Assembly (NCBI GenBank): GCA_943736015.1
Contig: OX031063.1
Location: 39,882,672 to 39,946,671, forward strand
Direction: 5' to 3'
Origin: Tridacna crocea
Taxonomy: Eukaryota > Mollusca > Bivalvia > Cardiida > Cardiidae
Length of the DNA: 64,000 bases
In this document: positions 1,416-63,525 of the stretch, piece by piece
How positions within the stretch are numbered: position 1 is the stretch's first letter
Layout of the letters: each line of letters opens with the position of its first letter
The notes under the pieces: model-generated
Databases searched by the model: none
Seen by the model: only the letters and a program-made list of their open reading frames with translations
What the model was told of the DNA's origin: nothing
Program-made: the position numbers and the translations under genes

Positions 1416-1643
1416 TTAACTCGTTACCAAACGAAAAAATTTTAGACTAGTCCAAATCAAAAGCATTTGCAGGCAAAAAAATAAATGAGGCTTAAAAGTT
1501 GAAATTTGTTATGGGAAGGTAGAAAACATTGTGGGAAAAGGAGAAAATGCTGATTACCAGCATTTTCTCCTTTTCCCACTATGTTTTAAAAAATCTTCTC
1601 TTCCAGGGTCATTAAAACACGGAATTGTGTGGTAAGGAGTTAA
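1416..1643 (-). mobile_element. Hairpin MITE A, complete
   Basis: Flanked by TTAA on both sides, 228 bp. R arm first, apex GATTACC, L arm last. The hairpin right arm has CCCACTATG for CCCACAATG, one of few mismatches. Confidence 0.92.
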
Positions 1644-2140
1644 TTCTTCTATGAATTGTTACCTTTTGAGCTTTTATTTCTATTCAGTTTCCTATATGGA
1701 AACAAAATGCTGAGATGATCTTGACTATAGCATTGCATTTTCCAATAATTTTGATACCAGCTTTGCATTTCCTGTGCATTCTGAATCTTGTTTTCAGCCT
1801 TTATTTTTGACCTAGTTGCAATAGTGCTGTTCTTTTTTTTTCCATGACATTTTCCCGTTCCGCCAACGAACTATCTCTCTTTACTTTAAGCTCAGATTAT
1901 TACATAACTTTATTTTAAGATATTCAATACTTTTTTATTTACCCTCGATTTAAGCGTTTGAAAGATGATCATTCATGTACTATTGTATCTTTCTTTGTCA
2001 TAATACAGCATTTGTGTATGGTGAGACTTGAAAAAAGCCTAAATTTTGTTGTCTAGCATAGAGTTGCTATCTGTGCCAAATGACAAACTTTGAGACACAT
2101 CCATTTTGAAAGCATTGCAACAAACAAATCAAATGCTGCT

Positions 2141-2374
2141 TTAACCCTTAACCACACAATCCCTACTTTTGAGGTCCCTGAGATAGAAGCCTTCAGAAAA
2201 CATTGCGAGAAAAGGAGAAAATGCGGGTAACCAGCAATTTCTCCTTTTCCCACAATGTCTTCTACTCTCCACAAATCAAATTTCAAAATTTCAGTCACTT
2301 TTATTTTGTCGTCTGCAAATGCTTTCGATTTGGACGAGCCTAAAAATTAATATTGTCGTTTGGTAATGAGTTAA
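2141..2374 (+). mobile_element. Hairpin MITE A, complete
   Basis: TTAA at both ends. Loop region is altered to GCGGGTAACCAGCAATT; R arm ends TCGTTTGGTAATGAG-TTAA. Its right TTAA is followed directly by another partial copy. Confidence 0.9.
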
Positions 2375-2525
2375 GGAATGGATTTTAAAAAGAGCAAAAG
2401 CATTGTGGGAAAAGGAGAAGCTGATAGTTACAAGCATTTTCTCCTTTTCCACAGGGCTTTCATGCCTTCACAAGTCTTCTTCATCTAAATTGTTTAAACT
2501 AAAGGATTGTGTAGGAATATTTGAC
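2371..2525 (-). mobile_element. Hairpin MITE A, partial
   Basis: Core at 2401-2455 (GTGGGAAAAGGAGAAG...CTCCTTTTCCAC). The R arm is largely missing; the copy abuts the right TTAA of its neighbour. Confidence 0.65.
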
Positions 2526-2706
2526 TCTTTACCAAACAATTTTGTGATTTTGAAACAAATGGAAAGAGTAAAAAGCACAGTTAACTCCAGCAGGGTAGAA
2601 AACATGGTGGGAAAAGGAGAAAGTGGTGGTTACCTGCATTTTCTCCTTTTCCCACAGTGTTTTCAAAAGGCTTCTAAAAACCAGGGATTGGTTGGTAAAG
2701 AGTTAA
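2524..2706 (-). mobile_element. Hairpin MITE A, shortened R arm
   Basis: Starts CTCTTTACCAAACAA, ends GGTTGGTAAAGAG-TTAA. Core apex changed to GTGGTTACCTGC. L arm has AAAACCAGGGATTGG, a variant shared with family C. Confidence 0.8.
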
Positions 2707-2761
2707 AGATGAAAGATCAGATTTGATATAGAATGATTAGTATGTATCAGTAACGTAGAAG

Positions 2762-2990
2762 TTAACCCATTACCACACAATCCCTACTTTTGACGCCCCT
2801 GAGAAAGAAGCCTTTTGAAAACACTGTGGGAAAAGGAGAAAATGCTGGTAACCAGCATTTTCTCCTTTTCCCACAGTGTTTTCTACCCTTTTCAGAACAA
2901 ATTTCTATTTTTCAGTCACCTTTATTTTTTCGTCTGCAAATGCTTTCAATTTGGACAAGTCTAAACCTTCCTCGTGTGGTAATGGGTTAA
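2762..2990 (+). mobile_element. Hairpin MITE A, complete, well preserved
   Basis: TTAACCCATTACC to GTAATGGGTTAA, 229 bp. Hairpin perfect over about 33 bp per arm. Both arms carry the matched change CACTG/CAGTG instead of CATTG/CAATG. Confidence 0.96.
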
Positions 2991-3154
2991 GAATGGTAAT
3001 TTTAATGTAAGATTGGTTGTTATAAGATTTCATCTTTTCATATAGATATTGTTTCTTGACTCTGTACCAGACAAAAAGAATTGAAACTTTTTCAAATTGA
3101 AGGTGTCTTCAGAAGAAAAATTCAGTGTGGCTCAATTGATAGGCTCTGTAGTTA

Positions 3155-3378
3155 TTTACAAAACAATCCCATGTTTTAACGACACAAGGAAAAATTGCTT
3201 TAGAAAACATTGTGAGAAAAAGAGAAAATGCTGGTAACCAGCATTTTCTCTTTTTCCCACAATGTTTTCTATCCTTTCAAACATGAATTTCACAAATCCA
3301 GTCATTTTCAATGTGTCAACTTGGCAAGTGCTTTCCACATGGAATTGTCTAACAGTTTCTTGTCAAGTAAAGGGTTGA
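3155..3378 (+). mobile_element. Hairpin MITE A, diverged termini
   Basis: Hairpin at 3206-3273 with both arms altered together (AAAAAGAG and CTCTTTTT). Ends are decayed (GTAAAGGGTTGA). Lies upstream of the first PH exon. Confidence 0.85.
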
Positions 3379-3449
3379 GACATTGCCTTCTAAAACAGAC
3401 AACTTTTAAATCTTCTTTGTAAACAGGAATAATATGAGTGGATTGCTGG

Positions 3450-3600
3450 TAAAGGTTAAAGGAGAAATACATGTATGTGAGAAAACATTGTGGCAGTGGG
3501 AGTAATTGCTCCCATGACCACAGTGTTTCTATGCAGGTCTTCTGCAAGTACAGAAAGGAGGCAATCAGTTCTCTCTCCCATTCTTTTTTCACACCAAAGA
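3450..3600. mobile_element. Hairpin MITE, very diverged
   Basis: Core 3479-3531 reads AACATTGTGGCAGTGGGAG and CTCCCATGACCACAGTG, still foldable but unlike the A, B or C cores. Flanking arms not recognisable. Confidence 0.45.
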
Positions 3601-9700: not shown

Positions 9701-12700
9701 TGTTGAAATCTTTGATAAAACTTTCATATTTATAGTATTTATCTTATATATGATTATATTATCTGCAGGTTGTTTTTTATGAAGAAGTAGAAAAATAACG
9801 GATAAGCTCCAAATAAAATAAAAAGCCGAATGCATTATTTTGTCTCCTTGCAGGGTTGGATGATCAGGGCTTATATCGTGTGGTAGGGGTTAATTCTAAA
9901 GTAAATAAATTAATTGCCATGGGTCTAGATAAAAAGAAAGCTGACAAACTAGACTTGAATGATCCGGGGCAGTATGAAACAAAAACTATCACAAGTGCTG
10001 TAAAAAACTATCTCCGGTAAGTTCATGTTAATTTTTTTTTCCAACGCTGTCATTGTCAATATTAGGGGACCTTGTGAAGAGGGCTTTTGAAAATGTTTTT
10101 GGGAAAAGAAAAATGCCAATAAAAGAATGTTTCCATAATGATTTTTACTTTTTAAAGACAAGTCCCATCATCTGAATTATATTTTTTTTCATTTTCTTGT
10201 CAGCAAATGCTGTAAAATTTTTTCATGTTGTGAGGAGTTGACAGACTCAATAAAACCTAAGTGAAAAGTTAGCTTTATACCAAGCAACAAAATTTTAGAT
10301 TTGTCTGAATTGGAAGTTTTTTCAGGCAACAAATAAAATGTGGTTCAATTTTGTTTTTTTTTTTGTTTGTTACGAAACATTTGAAAACATTGTCAGAAAA
10401 GGAGAAAGTGCTGGGTAACAGCATTTTCTTGTTCAGCCACAATGTTTTCATAAGTTGCTTCTTATGGATGTTATAAACACAGGATTATTTGGTAGAGGTA
10501 TTATGTAGAATAATTTTAAAACTTTTCTTTGTGTTTAATCCATTTATGCACAAGTTTTTTGAGTCCTTTCAAAACAAATTAAAAATTTCAGAGTGGAAAT
10601 AAGTTTAAGGGTAAGGGTTTTTAGAAATATTATGAACAGGCTAAATTGTGTAACAATCCATTCTCCATCATGTGTGCATACCAAGCCAGCCTGTGAAAGG
10701 TCATGTTTTGAAAGTGATAGAGCTTTTTTTTTTTTGAAGATAGTACTAAATCAAAAACTAGTTAAATTGAAATATTGATGAAGTATGACATATACATGTA
10801 ATTCTTTTATGTCTTCTTTTTAAGATCCCTTCCAGAGCCTTTAATGACCTTTGAACTCCATCCTGACTTCATTGCTGCTGCTAGTAAGTCCAGTTTACGC
10901 TTTTTCCACGGCAAATTCTCGAATTCACAACTTAAAGACTGTATTACAACAGAGATAAAAATGAATTATAGTTGTTAAGATTACAAATAAATTAGGATCA
11001 AAGAAAAACTCAGAGCTATGAACCACCCACCTGCATTCTTCAATCAAAAGCAGAAATGTTAGATGAATAGAGACATAAACCATTGGGCTTGGACAGGGTA
11101 TAGTTTAGTAAGTAAACCAGTGGTGTGTCCTTTCGAATATTCAAAGTCTATTTAACCCTTTTCTCCATAGATACTCAATGCTTGTGGGAGCCTTTGGAAA
11201 ACATTGTGGCAAAAGGTGAAATTGCGCGTAACGAGCAATTTCACCTTTTGTTACAATGTTTTCAATGCTATCACAAGGTGTCATATACACATAAGAAAAG
11301 GCATCATCCTTGCTGTTATTTAGGGTCAATTAGAGATACCATAGAAATACCTTATGGGGTAAAGGCTTAACGCTTTACCATACAGCAAAACTTTAAATGT
11401 GACTGACTAATTAAACTTGGGTTTGTAGACAAATTTGGCTCAAATGATGAAGCTTGTCCTTGGTGTCGTAGAAAACATTGTAGGAAAAGGAGAAAATGCT
11501 GGTTACCAGCATTTTCTCCTTTTCCTACAATGTTTTCAGAAGGCTTCTTTCTCAGGACTATTAAAAGTTGGGATTGTTTGGTAAAGGGTTGAATTGAGTC
11601 TGGATGACAACTGCTGACTGATAACCCTTCACGAGATGGAAAAAAAATTCAGACTTCAAAATGGAAAAGATCGGCATACAAGAAAATAAATACAACTGAA
11701 AAGTTGAAATTTGTTTGGCGAAGGGTTGAAAACATTATAGAAAAAGGACAAAATTCTGGTTGCTGCCGTTTCCTTTTTTTCCAAGAAAGTTTTAACCCTT
11801 TACCACACAATTCCGACTTTTGACGACCCTGAAACTTTTTTAAAACATTGCAGGAGAAGGAGAAAATGCTGGTTACAAGCCTCCTTTTCTATCCTTTCCA
11901 ATACAATTTTCAATTTTTCAGTAATATTTATTTTTTGGGTCGGCAACTGCTTTCAAAATGAATTAGTCTTAAACTTTGTCATCTGGTCAAGGATTAAAGC
12001 TTCTCTGTCTGGATGGTTGAATGTCTGGAGAATGTAGTAAAGGGTTAACTCTACCACACAGTCCGGACTATTAACAACCCTGAGAAAGAAGCCTTTCGAA
12101 AACATTGTGGGAAAAGGAGAAAATGCTGGTAACCAGCATTTTCTCCTTTTCCCACAATATTTTCTATCCTTTTTACAAAACAAATTTCAACTTTTTGGTC
12201 ACTTTTATCTTATTGTCTGCAAATGCTTTCAACTTGGACCAGTCTAAAATTTTGTCGTTTGGTAAAGAGTTAACTTAGGTGAAAGCAGGGAGCTTTTTCA
12301 AATGATGGTTTAGGCTCTGCTGTCTTATTTTGATCTACACTGTCTGCTTATATGGTCATGGCTATGATGTAAAATATCTGAGTTGCAGTGAATTGTATTT
12401 TGAGCCATTGAAAGAGGTGGAGTCGATTTATCAAGTGCTTAACCCTTTCCCAAACAACAAATTTTGGACCCTTCCAATCCGAAAGAATTTGCAGATGACC
12501 CTTCTAAACCGAAAGAATTTGCAGATGACAATTTTAGATTTGGAGAAAATTGCAGAAAGTTCTCTAAAAGAGTAGAAAACACTGTGGGAAAAGGAGAAAT
12601 TGCTCGTTACGAGCAATTTCTCCTTTTCCCACAGTGTTTTCAAAGACTTTTACTGCAGACACGTAAAAACCAGGGCTTGTTTGGGAAAGGATTAATAAAA

Positions 12701-15700: not shown

Positions 15701-18700
15701 CAAAATTTCGTCCTATAGAGACGTTTAACCCATCTACTGGCAGTAAGTCAACAAATCAGTGTGTTCATATGATAAATCATACCCTTCCAAGTAACTGCTT
15801 TTGAAAATGTTAGCGAAAAGTTATGAAGTGTTGGAAGTGAGAGTTAATAATATGTGTAATCCTTTATAACTTGGAGAAAGAAGGCTTTTGAAAAACATTA
15901 TCAAAGAAGAAAATGATGGTTAGTGCTAAAAGCAGCTTCAACTGTGTATTGGCATCCGCAAAAGAAACTGCATTTGTTCATTTGCACCTGCATGTGGTGC
16001 TTTAATTTTGTATAAGATTGAACCTTATGATAGAATAAGATGATGGCTTTGTCGCAGTCACTTACTTTGATGGTCAATTGACCGGAAGACCTAGGTCAGC
16101 AGTGTTTTGGAACTAGTTTGTGCCAAAAAGAACTTTGAACTAGTGACATAATTTGCAATATATCAAATTTGTTTAAGATAAGAAAATTTGTCATGTGCAT
16201 ATTAGATTGAAATCAAGCTAGTTTTTTGATTTAAGTAAATCTTAATTGGTAAAACGCATTTTGACTATTTACAAGACAACAAAATTTTAGCCTTGCCTGA
16301 TTCGAAAGCAATGACAGACCACAAATTAAATATGACTTGAATGATGGGACTTATTTTCGAAAGATTTGAAAACATGATGGGGAAAAGGAGGAAATACCAG
16401 TTACAGTATTTTCTCCATTCCCTCCAGTGTTTCCAAAAGCTTATTCTTCAAGGTCATTGAAACGTGGAATAAGTAAAGTTTTAACTTTCATCATATGTTT
16501 CAGGCTTTGAAACACAAACAATCAATAGTGCCAGTGATAGCACAGATTCCTTGAACTCCACCCAATCAAATCATGTCACTACATATGGCGAGCCAACACG
16601 GCGGGCATTTGGTGGAACACCAGGGCGAGGCCCGGGTACCGGTCCAATATACAGTAATATTAACATCAGCGAACTAGGTAAGCATGACTCATTTTACGCT
16701 ACTATTGAGCTATGCTCTGTGAACAGGGGCTTTAATACATCTGCAACAAGTGTAGGTTCAGGTCAGCCAGTGCTAAATTTTCTGTATGCTCAAGGACCAT
16801 TCTACGTTACGATGCAGTTACTTGTTACACAAAGTGTGTGGAGGGATCCATGGGGATGTGATGACTTGTGTTGTGTGATGCATCCTGGAGATGTATTTAA
16901 CCCATTACCAAACGACAATATTTTAGACTGGTCCAAATTGGAAGCATTTGCAGACGACAAAATAAAAGTGACTGAAAATTTGAAATTTGTTTTGTGAAGG
17001 GTAGAAATCATTGTGGGAAAAGGAGAAAATGCTGGTTACCAGCATTTTCTCATTTTCTCCTTTTCCCACAATGTTTTCTAAAGGCTTCTTTCTCAGGGGC
17101 GTCAAAAGTAGAGATTGTGTGGTAAAGGGTTAAGCCCATTTCCCAGAGCATGGCTCATTTACTTCAGATACCTTTATGACAAAACACTGTGTATTGCTTT
17201 ACTCTACTCTAGAAAAAGTAAATTCAGACATAGCCCTTTACCACACAGTACGGACTTTTAACAACCTTGGGAAAGAATGCTTTTGAAAATAATGTTGGAA
17301 AAGGAGAAAATGCTGGTAACCAGCATTTTCTCCTTTTCCTACAGTGTTTGCTACTCTATCAAAATCAACCTCCAGATTTGATTTGTAGTCTGCAAAGGCT
17401 TTTGCATTGGTTAAGTCTAAAATTTTGTCGTGTGGTAAAGAGTTAAGTGGAAGTATTTGCAAGCCACAATTTAAGTGTGGCTCATGTAATGTAATCAGTT
17501 TTTGAAGGATGATAAAATATTGTTGAAAAAGGAGAAGAAGCTGGTAACCATAATTTTCTTTTTTTTCCCACAATCTTTTAACCCATTACCACACGATCCC
17601 TACTTTTGATGCCCCTGAGAAAGAAGCCTTTAGAAAACATTGTGGGAAAAGGAGAAAATGCTGGTAACCAGCATTTTCTCCTTTTCCAACAATGTTTTCT
17701 ACCCTTCACAAAACAAATTTCAAATTTTCAGTCACTTTTATTTTGTCATCTGCAAATGCTTTCAATTTGGACCAGTCTAAAATTTTGTCCTTTGGTAAAA
17801 GGTTAAAACCTTTCAGTTTCTACCATGAGTTGATTAAATCATTGGATAGTTTGGAAAAGAGTCACATGGTTTGAGAATATTTTACTTACCCAGCAGTAGA
17901 CTATTTTTCATGGACTAACTAGCAATTTCTCCTTTTGCAACAATATTTTTCACATGTTGAATCATGATTCATATGCATTCATATTTTACAAATGATCACT
18001 GCTATAAACTTGCTTCAGGCAGTGATGATAATATCAATATCAGGCTTTTCTGTTTTATGTAGCAGTTTTATATTTACATATAGCTTTATAGGCACTTCTC
18101 TAGTATTTCTCCTTTCTGAACCTTTTATCAAACAGTCCCTGGTCTTTAATGAATCTGAAATAGAAGCCTTTTGAAAACATTGTGGAAACAGGAGAAAATG
18201 CTGGTAACCAGCATTTTCTCCTTTTCCCACAATATTTTCTAGCCTGCTGGAAATAAATTTCAATTTTTGAGTTAAGTTTTTTTTTGTCATCTGCAGTTGT
18301 TTAATTTGTACCGGTCTCGATTTTGTTGTCCGGTAAAGTGTTAAATAATCAACACAACCAGATAAGAAATTTGAGAAATATCTTTTTGAAAAATAAGTTT
18401 TTCAAAATCATGAAATAAGTTTTTCGTAGGGTTGAAAACATGGATGGAAACTGAGAAAATGCTCTTTAAAAGAGTATCACAGTTTAAGCCTTTACCAGAT
18501 GACAAAGTGTTAGCTTTGTCTAAATTGAAAGCATTTGCAGATTACAATTTTTTTGCAGCTCAAATGGTGCATTATTTCTTTGATAGGGTAGAAAAAATTG
18601 TGAGAAAAGGAGAAAATGCTGATACAGCATTTTCTCCTTCTCCCACATTGTTTTCAAAAAGCTTCTTTCCCAGGGTTGTTAAAAGACAGCATTGCATGCT

Positions 18701-21700
18701 AAAAGGTTAAACACGATTTATATATCACTGTGTTTATTCATTAGGCTATCAGATCCCAGTTGAAAAAATAGAGTTTGAAAATCCAAAGTCACCTGGTGAG
18801 TGTGGCATGCATTTTTTTGTAATCAATTTTTAAACTCCTGCCTGACTACATGCATTGTTAACTATAGAACACTGAAACAGAGATTTACAGTTCTCATCAT
18901 GTAGATTAGATACTCTTCCATAAGGACTATTTGGTTGAAATGGTAATATAACCCTTTACCCCATAAGGCATTTCTATGGTATCTCTAATTGACCCTAAAT
19001 AACAGCAAGGATGAGGCCGTTTCATATGTGCATATGACACCTTTTGATAGTGTAGAAAACATTGTGGCAAAAGGTGAAATTGCTCGTTACGAGCAATTTC
19101 ACCTTTTGCCACAATGTTTTCCAAAGGCTCCTACAAGCAATGCGTAGAAATGAGTATCTATGGAGTAAAGGGTTAAAGGTTTCAATTGTGAAGGAGGATG
19201 TGCAACTTTACAGATGTTGACAACTTTTTTTTGAAACCCTAAGTAAAAACTGTTCCATAATGTAGATAGTTTGACATTTTTACAGTCTGATGATAGGATT
19301 TTGAACCCAGAACCTTTAAAGAGAGAGGCTGATACTGTACTTCTGCATAAGGGTTGGTTGTGTGTTTGATACTAAATGCTGTTTTCACATGAGAGGCTAA
19401 TCCACTACTTTGCAGAAAAAATGATATTCTAACATGACATGTGAATTTGGCTCCATAAACACAGTAAAATGAAAGTGTGGTAAAATCTATGTTATTCTAT
19501 TTAGAGTGACATCATTCTATATAGAGTGACGTCATAAGTAAGTAGGTTATTCAATGGAATATAAGCTGCATCCAAATTTTCACCCTAGATATGAACTTGT
19601 TTTCCATTGATTAAGAGTTGGTTATGTTAGAATCAAAATAATCTTCTTTGTGTCGTGGATTATCATTCAGTAAACCTCATGAGTCATGAGGTGCAATAAA
19701 TAATTAAAAACCACCCAGGCTATTGCCCTCATGGATTATCTTTTGTGCCTCATAACTCACAACTGTGGTTTATTGAATGATAAACCGTGATACAAAGAAG
19801 ATTATTTCTTATGTAGTTTCATATTCAATGCTGTTTTTGGTATGAGAGGCTTATGTTTCATCTCTACATAAAGATTGTTGTCTATTTGTTAACCCATTAC
19901 CACACAAGCCCTACTTTTGACACCCTTGAGAAAGAAGCCTTTTGAAAACACTGTAGGAAAAGGAGAAAATGCTGGTAACCAGCATTTTCTCCTTTTCCCA
20001 CAGTGTTTTCTACCCTTCCCTGAACAAATTTCAATTTTTCAGTCACCTTTATTTTGTTGTCTGCAAATAATGCTTTCAATTTTGCAAATGCTTTCAATTT
20101 GAACCAGTCAAAAATTTTTTTGTGTGGTAATGCGTTAATGCTTTTTTGACATGAAAAGCTAATGCTTCATCTCTACATGAGGGTCACTGTCTGTTTGTAT
20201 AATGCTGTTTTGATATGAGAAGCCAAAGCTCCAGCTACTCAAAGGCTGTGTGGTTGTTTGGTGTGAACACTGTTTTCAACATTATATCAGTTGTATTGGA
20301 ATACCCAGGGTACCTATCCATACTCTCCTGGACTTTCTTTAACCCATAACCACACAGTCCCTACTTTTGACGACCCTGAGAAAGAAGCCTTTAGAAAACA
20401 TTCTGATAAAAGGAGAAAATGCTGGTAACCAGCATTTTCTCCTTTTATCAGAATGTTTTCTATCCTTCCCAGACCAAATTTCAACTTTTGAGTCACATTA
20501 ATTTTGTTGTCTGCAAATGCTTCCAATTTGGACCAGTGTAAAATTATGTCGCTTGGTAGAGAGTTAAGCAGTACTTTAAAAAATATTTTTCAAATCTACT
20601 TTCTGCATTCCTACAGAAAAATAGATGTTTAGTAGTGTGAGACAAATGACAGCATTTGCAAAGACCATCGTCAGTCCTCTGAAAGAAATAAGCCAAACTA
20701 GAAAACAGAAATCACTGGCAAAGCCTTGCATGTTACTGACTGGGCTAACAGACTTGGAATGGAGGGTGGGGTGGGTCCTGCATGGCTGATTAAACATTAT
20801 CATGTTGAGCAGATGTTTGAAAATATTGTGGAAAAAGGAAAAAGTGGTGATAGCCAGTATTTTTACCTCTTCCCAAAATGTTTTCTACCTTTTGAAAGAC
20901 AATGGCAACATTTATTCACATCTAACTTTTGACCAGCGAGTGCTTTCAGTTGATATGTTTTTAAAAGTTTTTGGTTTGGTAAAGGGTTAGTGAAAGTCTA
21001 GGACTTGTAATCCAGCACCCCTGGTAAAATGCAAGACATTCTACACCAGTGCCACTCACAATTTAATGGTTTATTTGATGGAATTGTAAATGTAGCCTCT
21101 GTGCATGTGTTATTGCATCATGACCTGTGTTTGCTTTGAACATCAGAGAGTTTATTTCCCCCTCAAATAAGAAGTAAACATTTTTTGTCCACCAAAAAAC
21201 CCTTGATTTTTAACTCCAATGGTCGAAGGTCAGCAAGCTTATACCATGGCCCTGTATCTGTTGTATGTGCCACTTACCTCTATGCATTTGACTGTGCATG
21301 TGTGTGTTAACATTGATTTCAAACATCTTTTTCTTTGGAATTACCTAGCCAATTTTAATGAAACTTCAAAGAAATAATCCTGCAATTGCTCTCTTTAGAT
21401 TTTCTTTGAAGAAATTGATTTCATGGAAAACTGGTTGCTATGGCAGCAAAACTAAAAAATATTGAAAAAACTTTAAAATCCTATCTGAAACCTGTAGGCC
21501 TAGGATTACCAAATTTGCATGCACTTGGCCTGTAGCAAGATTTACTATAGCACCGAGGTAAGCCCATGGGATAACAAATTTACATAGCTTATATAATGAA
21601 AACTTTAATTGAATTAATAGGACTTAAACCTGCAAAATAATGATTAAAGGAAATAACTTCTGAAAACACCTATCAGATTGTGTTCCCATTTATTCCCCTT

Positions 21701-42262: not shown

Positions 42263-43090
42263 GATTGCTTTAGCCCTAATGGGGATTGTCCTCTGTGATT
42301 ACCTGAGATTCTTTTTGGGTTTGATTTTTTTGTTTCTGGAACTTTCTAGGACTTGTTCCCTAATTATCTGAGGCTTTCTGGGGCCTGTTCTGTGATTGCC
42401 TGAGGCCTGGCCCTTCTGGGACCTGTCAACTGATTGCCTAGGCTTTCTTTGACCTATTCCCTAATTTCCCCAGGCCTTCTGGGACCTGTTCTCTGATTGT
42501 CTGAGGCCTTCTGGGACCTGTCAACTGATTGTCTAGGCTTTCTTGGATCTGTCCTCTAATTGGCTGAGGCTTTGTGGAACCTGCCCTCTGATTATCTAAG
42601 GCTTTTCTGGGACCTGTTCTCTGATTGCCTGAAGCCTTCTGGGACCTGTTAACTGATTGCCAAGGCTTTCTTGGATCTGTCCCCTGATTGGCTGAGGCTT
42701 TCTGGAACATGTCTGGGGCTTGCCTCATTCTGTCCTTTACTAGTCTTTTGTTTTCCTTAGGCTGTCTGAGACTTTTCTTGTGACTGTCTTCAGAACTCTG
42801 TCAAGAACTTGGCTCTTTCAGAACTCTGTCAAGAACTTGGCTCTAGATTGCCAGAGGCTTTCTTAGACTAGTTCTTTGATTGCCCTTTGCTTTCAAGACT
42901 TGATGTTTGATTGCCCTAAGCTACCTTAGATTTGTCAGCTGATGTCTGTGGCTATCTTCTGTCTGTCTTCATAATGGTCTTCAGATGTATGAAGTCTAAC
43001 ATTTTTAAGACTTGCCCTCTGATTGCCTGAACTTGTTTAAGATTGTACTCGGTTGCCTGTAACTTCCTTTGACTTGTCCTCTGATTGTCC
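42245..43090. repeat. Minisatellite, unit about 31-33 bp
   Basis: Some 20 or more diverged units around TTCTGGGACCTGTC, CTGATTGCCT and GAGGC. Unit steps near 42420-42540 are 31, 32, 32 and 31 bp. Related wording resumes at 44450-44530, on the far side of the pearl-like element. Confidence 0.88.
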
Positions 43091-47743: not shown

Positions 47744-47972
47744 TTAACCCTTTCCCAAACAATCCTGAGTTTCACAACCCTGAGAAAGAAGCCTTCTGAA
47801 AACATTGTGGGAAAAGGAGAAAATGCTTGTAAACAGCATTTTCTCCTTTTCCCGCAATGTTTTCTTACCTTTCCAAAACAAGTTTCATTTTATACTTTAA
47901 CATGTATTTTGTCATCTGCAAATACTTTCAATTTGGACTAGTCTAAAATTGTGTTGTTTGATAAAGAATTAA
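47744..47972 (+). mobile_element. Hairpin MITE A, first of a row
   Basis: TTAACCCTTTCCCAAACAAT to TTTGATAAAGAATTAA, 229 bp. Apex TGTAAACAGC. Left terminus has the CCC variant (TTTCCC) seen in C. Confidence 0.93.
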
Positions 47973-48039
47973 CCTACTACCATATAGTAAAAAATTGTAG
48001 ACTGGACCAAATTAAAAGCCTTTTTGGATGGCAAATTAA
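47969..48039 (-). mobile_element. Hairpin MITE A fragment (R arm)
   Basis: Uses the previous right TTAA; CCTACTACCATATAG, GTAGACTGGACCAAATTAAA, then stops at AAATTAA. Confidence 0.7.
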
Positions 48040-48043
48040 TCCT

Positions 48044-48247
48044 TTAATTCTTTTCCAAACAACAAAATCTTAGACAGGTCCAAATTGAAAGCTTTTGCAC
48101 ACAATAAAATAAACATGACTGAGTTGAAAACATTGTGGGAAAAGGAGAAAATGCTGGTTGACTGCATTTTCTCCTATTCCCACAATGTTTTGAAAAGGCT
48201 TTTTCCATGGGATTGTTAAAACCAGGGATTGTTTGGTAAAGGATTAA
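48044..48247 (-). mobile_element. Hairpin MITE A, near complete
   Basis: TTAATTCTTTTCCAAACAAC to TTTGGTAAAGGA-TTAA. Apex GGTTGACTGC partly unpaired. L arm has AAACCAGGGATTG. Confidence 0.92.
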
Positions 48248-48360
48248 ATGGTGAACTCTGTGCTAAATAGGGCAGAAAACACATAGGAAAAATGAGAAGT
48301 ACTGATCACTAACATTTTCTCCTTTTCTCACCAAGTTTTGAAAGGCATTGTACTGAAAAA
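48247..48360 (-). mobile_element. Hairpin MITE A fragment
   Basis: GGGCAGAAAACACATAGGAAAAATGAG and CATTTTCTCCTTTTCTCACC; both outer arms missing. Confidence 0.55.
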
Positions 48361-49619: not shown

Positions 49620-49717
49620 CAGGGAGCCAACATAATTTCCCCTAGGGAAAGACGGCTTTTGAAAGCTCTGTTGGAATAGGAGAATATGCTAGTAACCAGC
49701 ATTTTCTCCTGTTTTAG
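49620..49717 (+). mobile_element. Hairpin MITE A, left half of a split copy
   Basis: CTAGGGAAAGACGGCTTTTG, GTTGGAATAGGAGAATATGC, apex AGTAACC, GCATTTTCTCCTG, then the pearl-like element begins. Its other half is at 50761-50886. Confidence 0.85.
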
Positions 49718-50760
49718 CTCACCTGAGCACGAAATGCTCATGGTGAGCTTTTGTGATCGCCCAATGTCCGTCGTGCGTCGTCCACAATTTCTTTAAACAT
49801 CCTCTCCTCCTAAACCACTGGGCCGATCTTGATGAAACTTGGCAGGGATGTTTCTTGTGTGAAGCTCTACCAAAATTGTTCAAGAGATTGAATTCCAGCC
49901 ATAACTGTGGTTGCCATGGCAACCAAAAGAAAAAAAAAAAGCAAATTCTTTGAAAATCTTCTTCTCTGAAACTAGAAGGCGTAGAGCTTTAATATATTTG
50001 GTATGTAACATCTGCTAGTGGACCTCTACCAAGATTGTTCATATGATGCCCCTGGGGTCGAAACTGGACCCGTCCCGGGGGTCACAAGTTCGAAACGGCA
50101 ACAAAGAAAACTTTAAGAATCTTCTTCTCTGAAACTAGAAGGTGCAGAGCTTTGATGTAGCATCTCCAAGTGGACCTCTACCAAGATTGTTCATATGATG
50201 CCCCTTGGGTCAAAACTGGCCCAGCCCCGGGGGTCACAAGTTTGAAACATAGGAACAAAGAAGGAAAACTTTAAAAATCTTCTTTGAAACTAGAAGGTGC
50301 AGAGCTTTGATACTTGGTATGTAGCATCTCCTATTGGACCTCTACCAAGATTGTTCATATGATGCCCCTGGGGTCAAAACTTGCCCCGTCCCGGTGGTCA
50401 CAAGTTTGAAACAGGAACAAGGCAGGAAAACTTTAAAATTCTTCTTCTCTGAAACTAGAAGATTCAGAGTTTTGATTTTTTGGTATGTAGCATCTCTTAG
50501 TGGATCTCTTCCAAGAATGTTCATATGATGCCACTGGGGTCAAAGCTGGCCCGGCACTGGGGTTCACAAGTTTGAAACATAGGAACAAAGAAGGAAAACT
50601 TTAAAAATCTTCTTCTCTAAAAGTAGAAGATGCATTTTACACAGTTACCCTGTCAGAATTATTTGGCCTTGAACTTTGATATTTGGTATTTATCTTCATT
50701 GTATACCTTTACTGCTTAGTTCTCAGGTGAGCGATATAGGACCATCATAGTCCTTTTGTT
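49718..50760 (+). mobile_element. AGCTCACC-type pearl/Helitron-like element inside a hairpin MITE
   Basis: 5' AGCTCACCTGAGCACGAAATG with hairpin TGAGCACGAAATGCTCA, GTCCGTCGTGCGTCGTCC, core of about four units (GATGCC at 50045, 50197, 50361, 50527; steps 152, 164, 166), 3' AGGTGAGCGATATAGG with hairpin AGGACCATCATAGTCCT then TTTGTTT. Confidence 0.88.
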
Positions 50761-56042: not shown

Positions 56043-59000
56043 GTATTATAGAAATTAGAGTGTTTTTTCTTTTTAAATTTTCTTTATAACTCTAAAAACA
56101 TAAACCTTGGCGACCCAGTTTGGAAAGCATTCGTAGACCGAACTTTATAGGTGACTCCAATAATGTAATTTGCCAGTGATAGGATAGAAAACATCGTGGG
56201 AAAAGGAGAAAATGCTGGTTACCAGCATTTTCACCCCTTTTCAGAACGTTTTCTCTTTCGGGTCGTTAAAGTCGGAATTATGTGGTAAAAGGCCAACTTA
56301 TAACAAATTTTAGACTCATCAGAACTGAAAGCATTTTCAGTTGACAAATTAAATACATCAAATGCTTCAGTGTTTAGTTAACCATTATTTTTTTTCTATC
56401 CCGAAATGTTTTTTTTTTTATCTTTTTCAACGACATTTGACCCACGGTACTTTCTCATATGCTTCGAATTTGGGCTGGTCTGCAATTTTGTCGTCTGAAA
56501 ACAAATAATAAGAAATCAGAAGACGAAAGCAAGCAATCACGGGAACAGTCGAGTTAATAAGTATTTAGCATTCACATTGATTTCCATCGCTTGGTAATTG
56601 AAACTAATTCAGGAGTATTTCCAGAAACCCAGACTGAAACACCTTCCAGGACATTCAAGGACGGGGCTAAAAGCCCACTCTTAATTATCATAGCGGCCTA
56701 CATGCATACAGGGTCTACTTATACCGGAAGTATCTTTCAACAACATCCGGGGACTTTCTATGATTACGAAGCTCTGCGAAGCGCCGTGGGATCAAGCCGA
56801 AGGCATCTGCCTGTTCTGTTCTTGAATGGGTCATACAGGTAATAAAAACATCTTTCTAATTAATCTCATCAAACTTTAAAACAACTCAAAACTAACAAAA
56901 CGAAACAAAAAAAATCTCAGAATTAGGTAAGGCGATAGCTTCACACATCATTGAAAGATGAAAGTAAATAAAAACGTTAAATGATTTATCGGATATGGAC
57001 TTCATAGTCTCTTACTAAATACTGTATGTACTTAGATTAATCACAAGAGTTTACTCAAGAGTTGAGAATGTCACATAATCAAAATCACAATTCAGCAGAC
57101 GATTCCGCAACCGACATGTACTGTGCTAGTCATTATCCTCCGCTAGGTGGCATTTTTCAAATGAATCGGAACCGGGCTACTTTTCAAAACGACAATCCTT
57201 ACATGGGATTCCAAAATAAGATAAATGTTTGATCAATAAAACGCAACCCATTACAGTATGATTCACAAATCCAACTTTGGTCAGCTGGCATGTAACCTAT
57301 GCACCAGTCATTTATAAAAAACACCCCCTACAGGCTTGGAAAATAGCTTCGGTATAAGCCCAGAAATTGTTGTGTATACACAAATTTTGTTGCAAGAGCA
57401 TTCAACAAAATCTATGTTGAAGATGATCGTTTATTTAACCCATTACCAAACGACAATATTTTAGACTGGTCCAAACTGAAAGCATTTGCAGACGACAAAA
57501 TTAAAGTGACTGAAAATTTGAAATTTGTTTTGTGAAGGGTAGAAAACATTGTGGGAAAAGGAGAAAATGCTGGTTACCAGCATTTTCTCCTTTTCCCACA
57601 GTGTTTTCAAAAGGCTTCTTTCTCAGGGGCGTCAAAAGTAGGGATTGTGGGGTAATGGGTTAAAGAGAAGAATCAAATGTCAGAGCCACAAATAGAAGAA
57701 AGTTGATGCTAACCGGAAATGATACCCAATTTTGCACGGCAACACTAATGTAGGCATGAATCATTACTTCCGTCCATTCTGATCTTTGTGTTCTTTCACA
57801 GCTTCTTTGTGATCTTTCTGTTCATGTTGTTTGAGAGGGCTGCAAATTCTCTTTAATTAAAAATGCTGATTTGTGAAAATCGGACTCAAATATGAAGGCT
57901 GTAAGTTCTCCAGTTTAACTCTTTACCACATGAGAAAATTTCAGACTAGTCCAGATTGAAAGCATTTGCAGACGACAAAATAAAGGTGACTAAAAAATAG
58001 AAATTTGTTCTGGGAAGAGTAGAAAACACTGTGGGAAAAGGAGAAAATGCTGGTTTCCAGCATTTTCTCCTTTTCCCATAGTGTTTTCAAAAGGCCTCTT
58101 TCTCAGGGGCGTCAAAAGTAGGGATTGTGTGGTAATGGCCCAAGCGTCTGTATCGATTCATTAACCGAGAAAGACAGCCTTTGCAAGGTCGGTATTACAG
58201 GCTTTAGTGAACGGCCGAGATCAGGGTCATACTGGTGCAAAAGCGGGATCAGATGCTTGACCCACAACTTTCTGTCCTCTGAACACATTCATGTCTTTAT
58301 TTCTGCCTGTAAATGAAGATTTACATACACAAGTATACACACATTTTACTACATTTAGATACTGCTGGATACTGCCTCTTGCAAAATAATTTTGGCCTAA
58401 AGTTTGCACACAGCAGTTTTGTGCATATTAAACCTTTACCACGAAACAACGATTTGTAACAACTGTGAAAAAGAACAGCTTTTGAAGAAATACATTTTTG
58501 GAAATGAAAAAAAAAAGGCGTTTTCTCTCTTTTCCAAAATGTTTTGTTCTCTTCTCGGAGCTATTTCAATCTTTGAATCACTTTTATTTTTGTCGTCTGC
58601 AAATGCTTTCAGCTTAGACTGGTACAGAATCTTTTCGTTCGGGTAAGAGTTAACCCATTACCACACAATCCCTACTTTTGACCCCCCTAACAATAAAGCC
58701 TTTAGAAAACATTGTGGGAAAAGGAGAAAATGCTGGTAACCAGCATTTTCTCCTTTTCCCACAATGTTTTCTACCCTTCACAAAACAAATTTCAAATTTT
58801 CGGTCACTTTCATTTTGTCGTCTGCAAATGCTTTCAATTTGGACCAGTCTAAAATTTTGTCGTTTGGTAATGGGTTAAAGAACCAGTCCTGCTGAAAACT
58901 CCCTTCAGTTGCATAAACACTGGCCGTGCTCTATGAAGAGGAGGCTGCTTTATGCAATAAGTTTAGTTCAAACACATTTTATTTATCTTACATCGATTGA

Positions 59001-60653
59001 GACACAAGTTCTTACCACTTATACTAATCTCTCTCGATTCTCTTTATGCATTTGATAAAAGTATCAATTCATGTCAGCATGCGCAGTCCGAGTGGGCTGA
59101 CATGGGTCAAAACCTTTTACTATTGGTAAATTTTTCCGCATGTCAAAGGACAATTCTACCTTCAGATCAAGTCGATTGTTAGGAAAAAATGAATTTTATG
59201 GATCCATAATCATGTTATGACTTACTTGGTGTAATGTATCACTGAGATATATTAGGCCCCATTTTGCCAGAGCATTGACCATGTACACTGAAAACTCAAG
59301 ATTCTTTTTTGAAAGTGTATCTCTACTGCTACTGGACAGAACGGAACAGAACAGACAATTTATTCAAGTACTTAGGCCTCCGGCCCATCATACTACACAG
59401 TATTACATTATCATCATAATGTACAAAGTGAAAATCCATACACATATATGTTAAATATACCAAACGACAAAATGTAGACTTGACCAAATTAAAAGCACTT
59501 GCAGACGACAATATAGTTATTTACAATTGCATTGAATTGATTGAACTTGTCAAAATAAAACGATTGTGGGAAAAGGAAAAACAATGGTTTCCCATTGACA
59601 GTTTAGAACAAAGATCAGACCATATTTTGCGCAGTCTGATTTTGATATACAATGTTTACCAAAGCACTTTGAATAAGTCAATCTATGTGCGTATACTATG
59701 AAAAATAACATTCTAATGTTCAATATTTCGGCTATTGCCGAACTATTGAACATTCGAATGTTATTTTTCATAGTGTTTTAATCATTCCATAAGGAATTCA
59801 AAATGTCATTGTATATGTTCGTTTATTCAACGATTAAACAACTTGCAGGCAGTTTAATGGTGACTGGGTAGAAGAAGACGGGGTGGCAAGGGAACTCGTA
59901 CAAAATTTGCTGGACTGCAGATATCAATCAATGGATCTGGGAACAATGGACTCTTACTTCTATAACCCTACCAGACCTGTATACAAACATCGAAAACCAT
60001 TTCTTGATTGTCTACAGGAACATAAAAAGGTTGTGGGAACTACGAGAATACAGAGAATACTCGATTGTTTGCCATATTTGGTAACACCCTGTATCAAAGC
60101 GCACATCCGGGTATTTAAATTCATTCGTTTTCCGTTGTCAGCTGTTGGAGAGTTGCTGCGGGATAATGAAAATCTAAAAATAATTCACCTTGTACGCGAT
60201 CCTCGTGCCATGATGGATTCGCAAGTCCGCAAAAACGACAATGAATCAAAACGTCTGTCGAACTTCACCGTCAACACGAAAAGAATCTGTAACAGAATGA
60301 TGGCGGATTTGAGTTTTTTCAAGACGTCAGCAAATGACATTCAGAGAAATATTAAACTTGTTCGTTACGAAGACTTAACGGATTTTCCACAAGATGTGAT
60401 GAGAAAACTGTTTGAATTTGTAAATCTTAATTTTACAAAGAAAGACGTGGATTATGTACAGTCACACACTAGGAATGATTCCGATTTGACAAAGAAGAAG
60501 CTTCCAACATGGCGGAAGCATATGAAGCAACCTTTCTTGGATGTAGTGAACAAACATTGTAAACCCTTGTATAAAGAACTTGGTTACATCGAACATGCAG
60601 ATATAGCCGATATACAAGACATTGAACAACACACTTACATCACCACGAAATGA
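55898..60653 (+). CDS. Carbohydrate sulfotransferase, 5'-incomplete, 3 exons seen
   Basis: Golgi type II membrane enzyme expected to move sulfate from PAPS to a sugar of a glycoprotein or proteoglycan. Exons 55898-56042, 56613-56838 and 59849-60653 join in frame to 391 codons plus TGA. The first carries the anchor YLLCLTIFALVCVMLL, with basic residues before it. The second holds the 5' PAPS loop AYMHTGSTYTGSIFQQHPGT, then FYDYEAL. The third holds the 3' PAPS motif IIHLVRDPRAMMDSQ and the C-terminal WRKHM...C..LYKELGY. Overall pattern is CHST1/3/7-like (Sulfotransfer_1 fold). Potential N-glycosylation sites: NFT and NDS. No in-frame ATG precedes the anchor in the first exon, so the initiator must be in an exon farther 5' that I did not find. 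Substrate cannot be told from sequence. Confidence 0.93.
56103..56294 (-). mobile_element. Hairpin MITE A, outer R arm missing, in sulfotransferase intron
   Basis: GAAAGCATTCGTAGACCG, core CGTGGGAAAAGGAG with apex GGTTACC, partner TTCACCCCTTTTCAG; L arm GGAATTATGTGGTAAAAGG. Confidence 0.85.
56291..56500. mobile_element. Hairpin MITE A with two R arms, decayed
   Basis: Left AAATTTTAGACTCATCAGAAC and GCATTTTCAGTTGAC; right ATATGCTTCGAATTTGGGC, TGCAATTTTGTCGTCTG. The centre keeps only TCCCGAAATG. Third two-R copy in the window. Confidence 0.65.
56613..56838 (+). CDS. Sulfotransferase exon with 5' PAPS-binding loop
   Basis: Acceptor CTAATTCAG, donor GTAATA, phase 2. Stem FPETQTETPSRTFKDG, strand SPLLIIIAAYM, loop HTGSTYTGSIF. 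The HTGST loop is the counterpart of RTGSS in CHST enzymes. Confidence 0.93.
57435..57663 (-). mobile_element. Hairpin MITE A, complete, near consensus
   Basis: TTAACCCATTACCAAACG to GGGTAATGGGTTAA, 229 bp. One hairpin mismatch (CATTG against CAGTG). Confidence 0.97.
57914..58141 (-). mobile_element. Hairpin MITE A, right TTAA lost
   Basis: TTAACTCTTTACCACATG to GTGGTAATGGCCC. CACTG in the left stem, ATAGTG in the right. Apex GGTTTCC. Confidence 0.94.
58428..58653 (+). mobile_element. Hairpin MITE A, first of a pair, decayed hairpin
   Basis: TTAAACCTTTACCACG to GGGTAAGAG-TTAA. Core TTTTTGGAAATGAAAAAAAAAAGG with a short partner. Shares the right TTAA with a much fresher copy. Confidence 0.9.
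58650..58878 (+). mobile_element. Hairpin MITE A, second of a pair, near consensus
   Basis: TTAACCCATTACCACACAAT to TTTGGTAATGGGTTAA, 229 bp, perfect hairpin. Good type copy for the A consensus. Confidence 0.97.
58915..59185. mobile_element. GAGCC MITE (family D), decayed
   Basis: GGCCGTGCTCTATGAAGAGG at the left; hairpin ATGTCAGCATGCGCAGTCC / GTGGGCTGACATG at 59070-59104; right end unclear. Confidence 0.5.
59455..59605 (-). mobile_element. Hairpin MITE A, L arm and stem missing
   Basis: ATACCAAACGACAAAATG, TAGACTTGACCAAATT, GCACTTGCAGACGAC; core GTGGGAAAAGGAAAAAC has no partner. Confidence 0.75.
59696..59775. repeat. Long hairpin in the last sulfotransferase intron
   Basis: ACTATGAAAAATAACATTC...TTTCGGC and GCCGAAC...GAATGTTATTTTTCATAGT form an arm of about 37 bp with two mismatches and a 4-base loop TATT. 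Unrelated to the other hairpin families. Ends 73 bp before the last exon. Confidence 0.93.
59849..60653 (+). CDS. Sulfotransferase last exon: catalytic domain
   Basis: Starts RQFNGDWVEEDG after acceptor ACTTGCAG and runs 805 bp to TGA. Contains HIRVFKFIRFPLSAVGELL, LKIIHLVRDPRAM, KLVRYEDLTDFPQDVM and the terminal CKPLYKELGYIEH. The single long catalytic exon is usual for this family. Confidence 0.96.
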
Positions 60654-61215: not shown

Positions 61216-61247
61216 GAAACATTTAAAAGTATGGAGAAAATGATGCA

Positions 61248-61531
61248 TATGAACCATGCTCTGACAAAAGGAGGCTTATTGCATTTTCATGATGCATCTG
61301 ATGCCAAGTGTATCACCATTTTGTAATTCTGGATCTATGAAATCTATTTTGTCAAGTAACCGACCGAGTCTTGAGGTACTCCGATCCTTTGACATTCAGA
61401 ACATTGAACAATGGCAAAAAGTTTCGTCCAAGGTCAGTCTGTGCGGATAGCTATCCGCGCAGACTGACCTTGACGAAACTTTTTGAAGATACCTTCAGTC
61501 CTCTTTTCACAGAGCACGGTTCACGTATATA
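61248..61531. mobile_element. GAGCC MITE (family D), uninterrupted copy
   Basis: Left GAACCATGCTCTGACAAAAG, right CTTTTCACAGAGCACGGTTC. Strong inner hairpin at 61421-61484: AAAGTTTCGTCCAAGGTCAG with CTGACCTTGACGAAACTTT around GCGGATAGCTATCCGC. Confidence 0.85.
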
Positions 61532-61874
61532 GATCAAGTTTTTCCCATTTATCACGATATTTTCCGATAAAAACACACCAGATTGTGTCTTTACTTTACC
61601 CTGGAAAAAGAGTCTGTTGGTAAGAATCGATTTTTCCCAGTGTGTCATGAAATAATAATGACCAGCTTCTATATCTAAATATTGGAATTGTGTTCAATAG
61701 AACTTAAACATCAACCGTGCGTGCCTTCCTGTGTTTTTAACGCCTATTTCAGTGGTTCAAAATATATTTAAGGTATGATTTTCATGTGTTTGTCTGACAT
61801 TAAATTTCTTTAATAACTGTGTGCTTTTTCCCACTTATCCTCACTATTCTGCTTTATTCGGTAACTCTCAGAAC

Positions 61875-62077
61875 ATGGATTGGTGCAAAATGAAAATATT
61901 TACAGTCGGCTTATCAAATCTGGTTAAAATAATGGGATTTGCCTCTGGGGCGGTATAAAAATCGCGGAAAAGGGCAAAATAATGCTAGTTGTCATCATTT
62001 TCTCATTCTACCACAATGTTTTCAAAAGTCATCGTTCTTTGGGTTGTTAAGTCAACAAGATTGTTTGGTAAAGATTT
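61875..62077 (-). mobile_element. Hairpin MITE A, decayed
   Basis: TGAAAATATTTACAGTCGGC; core TCGCGGAAAAGGGCAAAATAATGC with apex AGTTGTC; L arm AACAAGATTGTTTGGTAAAG. Confidence 0.65.
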
Positions 62078-62659
62078 TTCAAATTTGTACACTTAACGGC
62101 TACATTAGAGAACGCTGAAGTGTTTTTTGTCGAGGAAGCCATTGTGCGGAATTAAGAAAGAAAAAGAGAAATAATATTCAGATATTGGCTTGAAGGTCAA
62201 CCTACTAAGCACACGAATACCTTATGACAAAGTTTGGTTTACTTCTGTACTGGTTGTAGCCCTTTGTTCATAAGGAGGAATATGGAGTAATGTCCCTTGA
62301 CGTTAGGATGCAGGATGGGTAGAGAGAGAATAAACATGTTAAAATAGAGATCGATCGAATAAAATTAAGTTCTCACTTGAAAACTATGTTTTTGAAATAT
62401 CTTATTTGGCCTTTAATACTAAATTCCCAACAGTACAATCAATTATTTCGATTTATAGATATTCATGCCTAATCAAATGGAGTAGCGCGCAATCATGGGA
62501 TGAACAAGCCGTGGGACGAAGTGGTTTTTGAACGAAAAAGCTCAGGACCAAGCAATTCATAGACAAATTTTGTGTCATTGCGCCAACAGAAGGTTTGAAA
62601 AAGTGAAGCTATTTTCAATCACCAACTGGTATTTCTACTATCGATCGCCTCAGCCAGTG
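62078..62659. other. Intergenic, nothing recognised
   Basis: No gene or repeat family recognised. Confidence 0.45.
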
Positions 62660-62885
62660 TACCATTACCACACAATCCCTACTTTTGGCGCCCCTGGAAA
62701 AGAAGCCTTTTGAAAACATTGCGGAAAAAGGAGAAAATGCTGGTAACCAGCATTTTCTCCTTTTTCCACAATGTTTTCTACCCTTCACAAAACTAATTTC
62801 AAATTTTCAGTCACTTTCATTTTGTCGTCTGCAAATGCTTTAGATTTGGACAAGCCTAAAATATTGTCGTTTGGTAATGAGTTAA
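62660..62885 (+). mobile_element. Hairpin MITE A, complete
   Basis: ACCATTACCACACAATCCC to GGTAATGAG-TTAA. An extra A is present in both stems (GGAAAAAGG and CCTTTTTCC), a matched length change. Confidence 0.95.
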
Positions 62886-63159
62886 AATGCCATTTCAATA
62901 ATATATCTGTGTGCTACCGAAAAATTAACTTGGTTTATTTCCTTCGGCTTTGCGCAAAATGCGACACATGGTCTTCAGAATTTAATATTGAACTCATAGT
63001 GGCATCATCTTCGACTAATACCACAAAAACTGTGGTATACTGGATTCTCTATCAGTATGTCTGTCCGCTTTCCCGTCATCTGTTTGTTGACCCGTGGACG
63101 AACTTTCAAACTGAAACCATTCGACATACGTAGAATAAGGAGACGTCATTTTTTTGTAC

Positions 63160-63400
63160 CGGAGGGGTACTGCATGGCTTAGTTGTAAAGCGTATATAAC
63201 TCGTAACCTTGAGGCCCCAAGTTCGAGCCACACTGGATCTTTCGCGAGAGTGTCCTCGGAAAAAAAAAAAAACACTTCAGAACCCTTGTCTTTAAACTGG
63301 TGCAACTAAAGACATTTGAATGTGTGAGCGATGCCGATATATAGCTGAAATATTGTTGAAAATGGTGTTAAATACCATTCAACCAGGCCAGTGGGTATCA
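63160..63400 (+). mobile_element. tRNA-derived SINE, second type
   Basis: A box ATGGCTTAGTTGTAAAGCG and B box AAGTTCGAGCC; poly-A of 13 at 63260; tail GATATATAGCTGAAATATTG, AATGGTGTTAAATACCATTC. The tail has the layout seen at 34450 and 63935 but the head differs. Confidence 0.8.
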
Positions 63401-63422
63401 TTTTGACTATTTTGAAAACGGC

Positions 63423-63525
63423 GTTAACCTTTTACCACATAATCCCGAGTTTCAACGAGAAAACGTTTGAAAACATTTTCGGAAAAGGAGAAAAAGTCGT
63501 ATAATTTTTGTTTTGTAAAGAGTGA
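63423..63525 (+). mobile_element. Hairpin MITE A fragment (L arm and left stem)
   Basis: GTTAACCTTTTACCACATAATCC; AACATTTTCGGAAAAGGAG; ends TTTTGTAAAGAGTGAAGGG without the second stem. Confidence 0.78.

Follow-up and report, generated by a model that had tools for sequence, protein, structure and literature searches.

We analysed a stretch of 64,000 bp from the bivalve Tridacna crocea (the window; GenBank contig OX031063.1, positions 39,882,672 to 39,946,671), in which the main feature is a family of short elements flanked by TTAA and built around a long hairpin, a piggyBac miniature inverted-repeat transposable element (MITE). The window lies on C8, at 39.88–39.95 Mb, of an assembly of 1,048,827,098 bp in 31 contigs, nearly all of which is held by C1–C18 (40–77 Mb each). 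A family model obtained by iterated nhmmer searches (coverage threshold E<1e-3) found 120 non-overlapping loci (61 on the plus and 59 on the minus strand), of which 49 are near full length; together they occupy 20,822 of the 64,000 bp (32.5%). These values agree with a preliminary description of the same DNA, which gave about 100 copies and fragments and about a third of the window. The model was built on the near-full window copies, which belong mostly to the family designated A below, and it does not fully count the arms of families B–D.

A full copy consists of (i) TTAA, (ii) a left arm tipped by CCC[A/T]TTACC, (iii) a hairpin of 67 nt, (iv) a right arm of about 100 bp, (v) GGTAA[A/T]G[A/G]G and (vi) a second TTAA. 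The hairpin has 33 pairs and one centre base and occupies model positions 54–120 of 227; the long central hairpin noted earlier is thus real, at 67 nt rather than about 66 bp. Near-full window copies measure 204–250 bp with a mode of 229 bp, so that the range of 228–230 bp previously given for intact copies fits the better preserved ones and is too narrow for the near-full set. The ends of the young consensus (see below) read CCCATTACC...GGTAATGAG, and certain copies have CCC...GGG. By a strict rule, TTAA stands at both ends in 25 of the 49 near-full window copies. With 2 bp of slack, it stands on the left in 106, on the right in 108 and on both sides in 88 of the 135 copies that span the model ends among 354 loci from the window and the genome sample described below. 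TTAA occurs at 8.4 per kb overall, and we estimate that chance would place one within a window of five positions in roughly 4% of cases.

The following family A copies and parts of copies, preceded by the span of all family loci and followed by a nested copy, are referred to in the text; hairpin pairs are given by model position.

1–63494, both strands: span of the family loci in the window, including weak fragments at 1–44 and 1277–1415 (nhmmer).
2762–2990, plus strand: intact copy, TTAA at both ends, paired C-G at 61/113, relatives of 97–98% identity elsewhere.
17578–17806, plus strand: intact copy, TTAA at both ends.
57435–57663, minus strand: intact copy, TTAA at both ends, a single mismatched hairpin pair (61/113).
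58650–58878, plus strand: intact copy in which all 33 hairpin pairs match the consensus.
58705–58771, plus strand: central 67-nt hairpin of copy 58650–58878, with 33 pairs and a 1-nt centre.
58676–58685, plus strand: left subterminal stretch of copy 58650–58878, reading TTTTGACCCC where the family consensus has TTTTGACG.
20339–20567, plus strand: copy with three clustered paired hairpin changes (pairs 63, 66 and 67) and no unpaired change.
48036–48247, minus strand: nested copy, inserted at a TTAA in the right arm of the older copy 47970–48353.

The four intact copies were already named in the preliminary description, and their coordinates are exact: each is 229 bp long with TTAA at both ends. 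The nested insertion has TTAA on either side, and the older copy around it matches model positions 159–226 and 41–150; when its flanks are joined at one TTAA, a continuous older copy results. Folded as single-stranded DNA, copy 58650–58878 has z = -9.95 relative to shuffles, and in the centroid fold the arms pair at the tips only, the palindrome being internal. Membership in the Foldback (FB) or hairpin-only class was ruled out because the inverted repeat is internal and does not reach the tips.

The 229-bp element carries no transposase gene. The overall consensus has an open frame of 73 codons; by eye, a stop interrupts this frame in the young consensus and family B does not have it, and a coding role was dropped on these grounds. 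Its peptide has at least 7,788 matches among the 8,000 database proteins scored, which we read as gene predictions made over MITE copies and as a sign that the family is present in other deposited contigs. Scans of the window with Rfam (gathering threshold) and for tRNA genes gave no match.

To place the window in its genome we used a sample of 20 10-kb stretches placed at round coordinates along C1–C18 and picked before viewing. The family is present in all 20, occupying 397–3,803 bp of each (4–38%) and 39,989 of 200,000 bp in total (20.0%; bootstrap 15.4–24.5%), and covers 22–49% of the six 10-kb blocks of the window. Reversed and Markov-resampled controls of the genome sample matched 0 bp. 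The sample holds 234 loci, 109 of them near full length, a background density of about 1.2 loci per kb. Scaled to the whole assembly, these counts give about 1.2 million loci, 0.57 million of them near full length; a 72-base form of the hairpin has 15,130 exact occurrences. The window is therefore not a special locus but a dense sample of a genome-wide family, and the earlier suggestion of a locus with strong insertion preference is not supported, given that the 20 other stretches carry the family too. Both the genome-wide density and the presence in the window of at least two further families (B and C) lay beyond the view of the preliminary description.

Copies lie close together, and in 43 of 333 consecutive pairs they abut, as would also be the case if the locus were a tandem or segmental amplification or an artefact of assembly. 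We regard this as practically discounted: copies lie in both orientations, differ from one another and in many cases have their own TTAA, and the family's presence in all 20 stretches sampled from the 18 large contigs refutes it. On a rough estimate, the abutting pairs seem explicable by the supply of TTAA at element ends, with no need of an insertion preference.

The copies differ widely in age. Among 158 near-full copies from the window and the sample, nearest-neighbour divergence is 3.5–31% (median 13%), and 28 form a young cluster at 2.2–10.1% from its own consensus. When 40 of 1,807 candidates were scored against copy 2762–2990, one was the copy itself and the other 39, on many contigs, were 97–98% identical to it. 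The arms of 210 copies diverge from the overall consensus by 5–42%, and from this spread it follows that there were many rounds of amplification, the youngest fairly recent. The recent burst proposed earlier accordingly describes the young cluster and its relatives but not the many older copies. Carriage by viruses or bacteria was considered and dropped: hairpin words had no match in viral contigs and a single match in prokaryote genomes, in unrelated surroundings.

At least four families share the hairpin core and differ in their arms. The left tip of family A is CCC[A/T]TTACCACACAATCCC, that of family B CCCTTTACTCCATAGATACTCATTTCTACG and that of family C CCCTTTCCCAAACAAGCCCTGG; family D, known from two sample copies, starts like B, continues with TTTTGACGTATC and has a different right arm. 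The hairpin is nearly perfect, and distinct, in each of families A, B and C. Compared with that of A, the hairpin of B carries paired changes at pairs 67, 74, 79 and 84, and that of C at pairs 61, 79 and 84; the two family D copies are paired at 79 and 84 and contain some mismatches. Copies of B and C in the window are as follows.

18948–19176, minus strand: family B copy, left tip CCCTTTACTCCATAG..., four paired hairpin changes relative to A, TTAT in place of the right TTAA.
37534–37762, plus strand: family B copy, TTAA at both ends.
11152–11370, plus strand: family B copy with a shortened left arm.
25494–25682, minus strand: family B copy with an internal deletion in the right arm.
22856–23084, minus strand: family C copy, left tip CTCTTTCCCAACCAAG, three paired hairpin changes relative to A.
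23326–23551, minus strand: family C copy, left tip CCCTTTCCCAAACAAG, two diagnostic hairpin pairs mismatched.

By eye, a hairpin of the same layout and different inner sequence (GAAAACAT...ATGTTTTC) also lies in the 3' flank, on the strand of the transposase frame, of a distant piggyBac frame at locus L044; it is possibly a further family of the core.

The two arms of the hairpin change together. We counted paired changes in the 221 of the 354 loci in which at least 30 hairpin pairs were readable. Complementary changes on both sides fill 157 cells, against 39.7 ± 5.8 (maximum 57) in column shuffles, and the genome sample alone gave 107 against 25.1 ± 4.5. At the true pairing, 2.90% of cells depart from the consensus on both sides, where 12 shifted pairings give 0.88–1.23%, and 32 of 80 near-perfect hairpins carry one to four paired changes. 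At pair 61/113, counted genome-wide with the other positions of the 72 bases fixed, the combinations were T-A 15,130, C-G 6,590, C/A 947 and T/G 813. Thus 21,720 of 23,480 copies are matched (92.5%; odds ratio 130), and 1,760 are unmatched where independence predicts 10,187. At the control pair 58/116, 18 genome copies have the double change and 233 have one of the single changes; about 4 doubles (3.6) are expected on the assumption that the other single change is as common as the measured 233.

Paired changes could reflect subfamily inheritance only, with a few founders that had different perfect hairpins and no process that matches the arms. Several results pull in this direction and away from a matching process: paired changes are in part inherited within subfamilies, and column shuffles keep relatedness; the five diagnostic pairs yield many of the paired cells, several of them travelling together in families B and C; and mutual information is led by subfamily structure, which gives a strong signal across the whole element and leaves 3 hairpin pairs among the 100 highest-ranking of 24,976 column pairs. 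When 24 copies of the 79T-95A type are removed, the excess drops to 80 against 28.3 ± 4.9 (maximum 44). In addition, an A/C mismatch at pair 65/109 is common to 6 of the 28 young copies. Unpaired intermediates thus occur and multiply, and therefore a perfect hairpin is not strictly required. We nevertheless consider inheritance as the sole cause improbable. The 80 paired changes outside the 79T-95A type are of 38 types and fall at 24 of the 33 pairs (56 of transition and 24 of transversion type), the doubles at pair 58/116 exceed expectation if the second single is as common as the first, and the founders' differing perfect hairpins would themselves need an explanation.

A process that matches the arms could act through mutation or through selection. 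The centre base of the hairpin, which has no partner, bears on this choice. It has changed from A to T in 23 of 188 family A copies, in comparison with 1.9% for the remaining A sites of the hairpin, none of which shows this change in more than 9 copies, and 6.5% for A sites in the arms. T outnumbers G by 23:8 at the centre; over the rest of the hairpin the ratio is 71:113. In yeast, according to the available part of one study, template switching at inverted repeats homogenises the arms and inverts the spacers (PMC8604942). The excess of centre-base inversion points to template switching between the arms. On the other side, 18 of the 23 copies with T at the centre are old (arm divergence of at least 0.2), three of them, in L027, may be one duplicated lineage, and template switching alone would not lower the variability of the hairpin below that of the arms.

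Such a lowering was observed. Per-site divergence across 148 family A copies is 0.065 in the hairpin and 0.13–0.23 in arm segments, and private changes in the 28 young copies, with CpG and marker sites removed, number 26 of 1,764 in the hairpin and 145 of 3,789 in the arms (p=7e-7). The gap narrows to 5.6% (hairpin) against 7.9% (arms) in the 59 pairs of copies whose arms are closest; therefore, arm subfamilies that our grouping did not separate may explain part of the difference. The lower variability of the hairpin, together with its sharing between families, suggests a use in transposition or amplification.

The same two properties, a core common to families with different arms and less variable than those arms, would be expected if selection on source copies kept the hairpin, a DNA or RNA fold being needed for transposition or for escape from silencing and the paired changes being ordinary compensatory ones; the near-perfect hairpins with one to four paired changes fit this too. 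This explanation is plausible, though we lean against it for three reasons: (i) 24 of the 80 paired changes outside the 79T-95A type are of transversion type and have no route through a G-T wobble, (ii) the mismatched form at pair 65/109 has multiplied in the young copies and (iii) selection on pairing does not predict an excess of centre-base inversion. We therefore hold template switching to be the more likely cause of the pairing than selection; the hairpin may have a use of its own besides.

PiggyBac transposases are present in this genome. A whole-genome search with PF13843, in which 116 of 196 candidates were scored, gave at least 118 matches that fall into several lineages, some 30 being nearly full length; 16 transposase loci of about seven lineages were retrieved. 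One lineage, F2, has five copies at a rounded identity of 100% over a 4,098-bp query, on C5, C10, C9, C15 and C3, and one at 98% on C18. An open stretch of 492 codons runs over the domain in all five near-identical copies, and the copies on C5 and C10 differ at 0 of 1,500 and 2 of 358 positions in the outer stretches compared. The exon matches PF13843 over positions 1–349 of 349 (E=2.6e-88) and, among PDB structures, piggyBat (E=9e-40) and piggyBac (E=4e-36), the alignment running through the C-terminal cysteine-rich end. The alignment includes DE, DN and GVD..D stretches, which we take to hold the catalytic aspartates. The gene seems to have an intron, and this intron holds a MITE fragment. 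Evidence for the intron is an upstream stretch at L030 (135–309), shared with L039 at 83%, whose translation (MSDSDSD...), judged by eye, looks like that of a coding exon.

The ends of F2 were determined by comparing the five 100% copies and their flanks, the C18 copy being excluded. They read TTAACCCATTACCGTTCAATAACGCCTTTTGACGCCCCT on the left and CTGAGTGGTAATGAGTTAA on the right, and the copy on C5 is 7,203 bp long. The left end TTAACCCATTACC... occurs with different flanks in four of the five copies, the right end GGTAATGAGTTAA in four of five, and TTAA at both ends in three of five. The young MITE consensus agrees with the right end of F2 at 14 of 14 bases; on the left the agreement is 32 of 39 and takes in 13 tip bases and CTTTTGACGCCCCT. 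TGACGC lies at equal distance from the tip in the MITE and in F2; stretch 58676–58685 occupies this position in copy 58650–58878, which lacks the G. ACG stands at 28–30 from the first C in the left ends of A, B, C, D and F2, while the bases between tip and motif differ (those of B and D being the same). Four stretches resembling TTTTGACGCC were seen by eye in the left end of F2. The left end of insect piggyBac has a binding site for the cysteine-rich domain (CRD), TGACGCATG, at bp 27–35, as given in the accessible text of PMC7351741.

Because TTAA flanks, CCC tips, a small gene-less size and F2 with the same ends are all found, we assign the family to the piggyBac MITEs, as the preliminary description had proposed; a partner from another superfamily had been set beforehand as a possible refutation, and the autonomous candidate that turned up in the same genome is a piggyBac. 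Judging from the shared ends, F2 is the probable autonomous partner of the MITE, and F2 or a close relative is the likely source of its movement. Proximity of MITE copies to transposase genes was dropped as a sign of partnership because of the background density of loci, and the element ends alone were used.

Several observations count against F2 in this role. Its likeness to the MITE is confined to the ends: in the alignments, which took in the outermost 200 bp on the left and 250 bp on the right, there is one 39-base match (32 alike) and one 14-base match, and nothing like the hairpin was found there. Two of the five copies lack TTAA at one end (L051 on C10, where the left tip is altered, and L053 on C9, where the right end is AATC). 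Other transposases might mobilise families B–D; the ends of L033/L036 and L044, two of the roughly seven lineages sampled, stayed undelimited, as did those of L034, a relative of F2. The absence of TTAA from the C9 and C10 copies is in itself unexpected under clean piggyBac insertion.

The main mover could then be a transposase other than F2, or several, with F2 a relative whose ends are alike by common descent. The many base differences from F2 between tip and motif in the left ends of B, C and D would fit, as would the number of PF13843 matches and lineages. We judge this rather unlikely, since four other lineages with clear ends have tips unlike the MITE past the first bases (CCCTTTATATAC, CCCTAGTCATGC, CCCATTTATGCCT and CCCTTTCAGYGC), and F2 matches family A at both ends. 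As a separate observation, the piggyBac with tips CCCTTTATATAC (L029, 868–3633; 2,766 bp, with a 602-aa frame from ATG) is itself inserted at a TTAA inside a MITE copy, and L037 on C12 encodes the same protein over 472 aa.

Taken together, we consider it likely that a genome-wide piggyBac MITE superfamily has been mobilised by transposases of the F2 type, with hairpin arms matched by template switching. In such a scheme, the F2 transposase or a close relative would bind the MITE tip and the TGACGC-like motif 26–31 bases in, and the same transposase would excise the MITE and insert it at new TTAA sites, so that copy number would have grown through many rounds. At replication or repair, template switching inside the hairpin would rebuild one arm on the pattern of the other; a base newly arisen in either arm would soon be mirrored, and the 1-nt centre would occasionally be inverted. 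Weighing against the scheme, transposition is deduced from sequence, and no movement was observed. A further idea is that the hairpin repairs itself, its symmetry being renewed as one arm is recopied from the other, and acts as a portable module that moves among piggyBac MITE families with different ends; the advantage in amplification that it confers on the family holding it would have been enough to fill a fifth of the genome. We offer this as speculation that is on the whole unlikely to hold in full.

Other features of the window are few. The clearest piece of a host gene seen is a 271-codon open frame at 59838–60653 (plus strand) with a sulfotransferase match (PF13469, E=2.5e-9; PF00685, E=5.7e-9). 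An insert of 1,038 bp at 49714–50751 splits a MITE copy, begins with a small hairpin (GCTCACCTGAGCACGAAATGCTCATGGTGAGC) and holds tandem units of 164–166 bp; an array at 26591–27731 is related to these units (67% alike). Two further tandem repeats have units of 156 bp (43471–44281; 5.2 copies, 92% matches) and 32 bp (42342–42712; 11.5 copies, 72% matches), the latter with a repetitive open frame on the minus strand that has no Pfam match.

A literature search by hairpin words and peptide pieces matched no paper in the collection searched. About 20% of a 1-Gb animal genome in one gene-less family is far above the leading-MITE figure for Sitophilus oryzae, in which, according to the portion of the report available, the commonest transposable element family is a MITE at 1.3% of the genome (PMC8576890). 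The two cases are alike in having a single highly abundant MITE family and differ in its share (about 20% of our sample). With a likely enzyme source present in near-identical copies with open frames, the outgrowth of a master element by its MITE becomes directly testable, and the estimated hundreds of thousands of hairpins of graded age are a natural experiment on palindrome mutation, since genome-wide counts can be made of paired changes, centre inversions and the intermediate states. The arm homogenisation and spacer inversion of template switching in yeast are alike to what is seen here; what is set out there, in the text at hand, concerns short repeats in genes and not the core of a mobile element (PMC8604942).

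F2 resembles insect piggyBac and bat piggyBat (PDB 6x67 and 9c0f) in a transposase that aligns over most of its length, in its TTAA target and CCC tips and in a TGACGC-type motif at nearly the same distance. Unlike them, it is 7.2 kb long, with an apparent intron, four repeats of the left-end motif and MITE copies inside.

The closest described analogue of the MITE is the CMITEs of the coral Acropora, elements of about 100 bp whose core spans 75 bases and whose number in A. millepora is estimated at 1,600, as the available part of the paper gives it (PMC2872659). Both have TTAA sites, tips of the CC[C/T]T type and tandem copies; in both, several families with different terminal repeats share a more conserved internal region, and a piggyBac carries the tips of one family (PMC2872659, same part). 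The published 60-base CMITE core has no significant match to our family consensus (E=0.74) or to the window (E=0.36) and, unlike the hairpin described here, folds weakly. The long perfect hairpin with paired changes and the 20% share of the genome likewise set this family apart from CMITEs as that text describes them. It is thus analogous to the CMITEs and not a member of them, and its shared hairpin reopens the question of that paper, namely why some MITE cores persist while their ends change.

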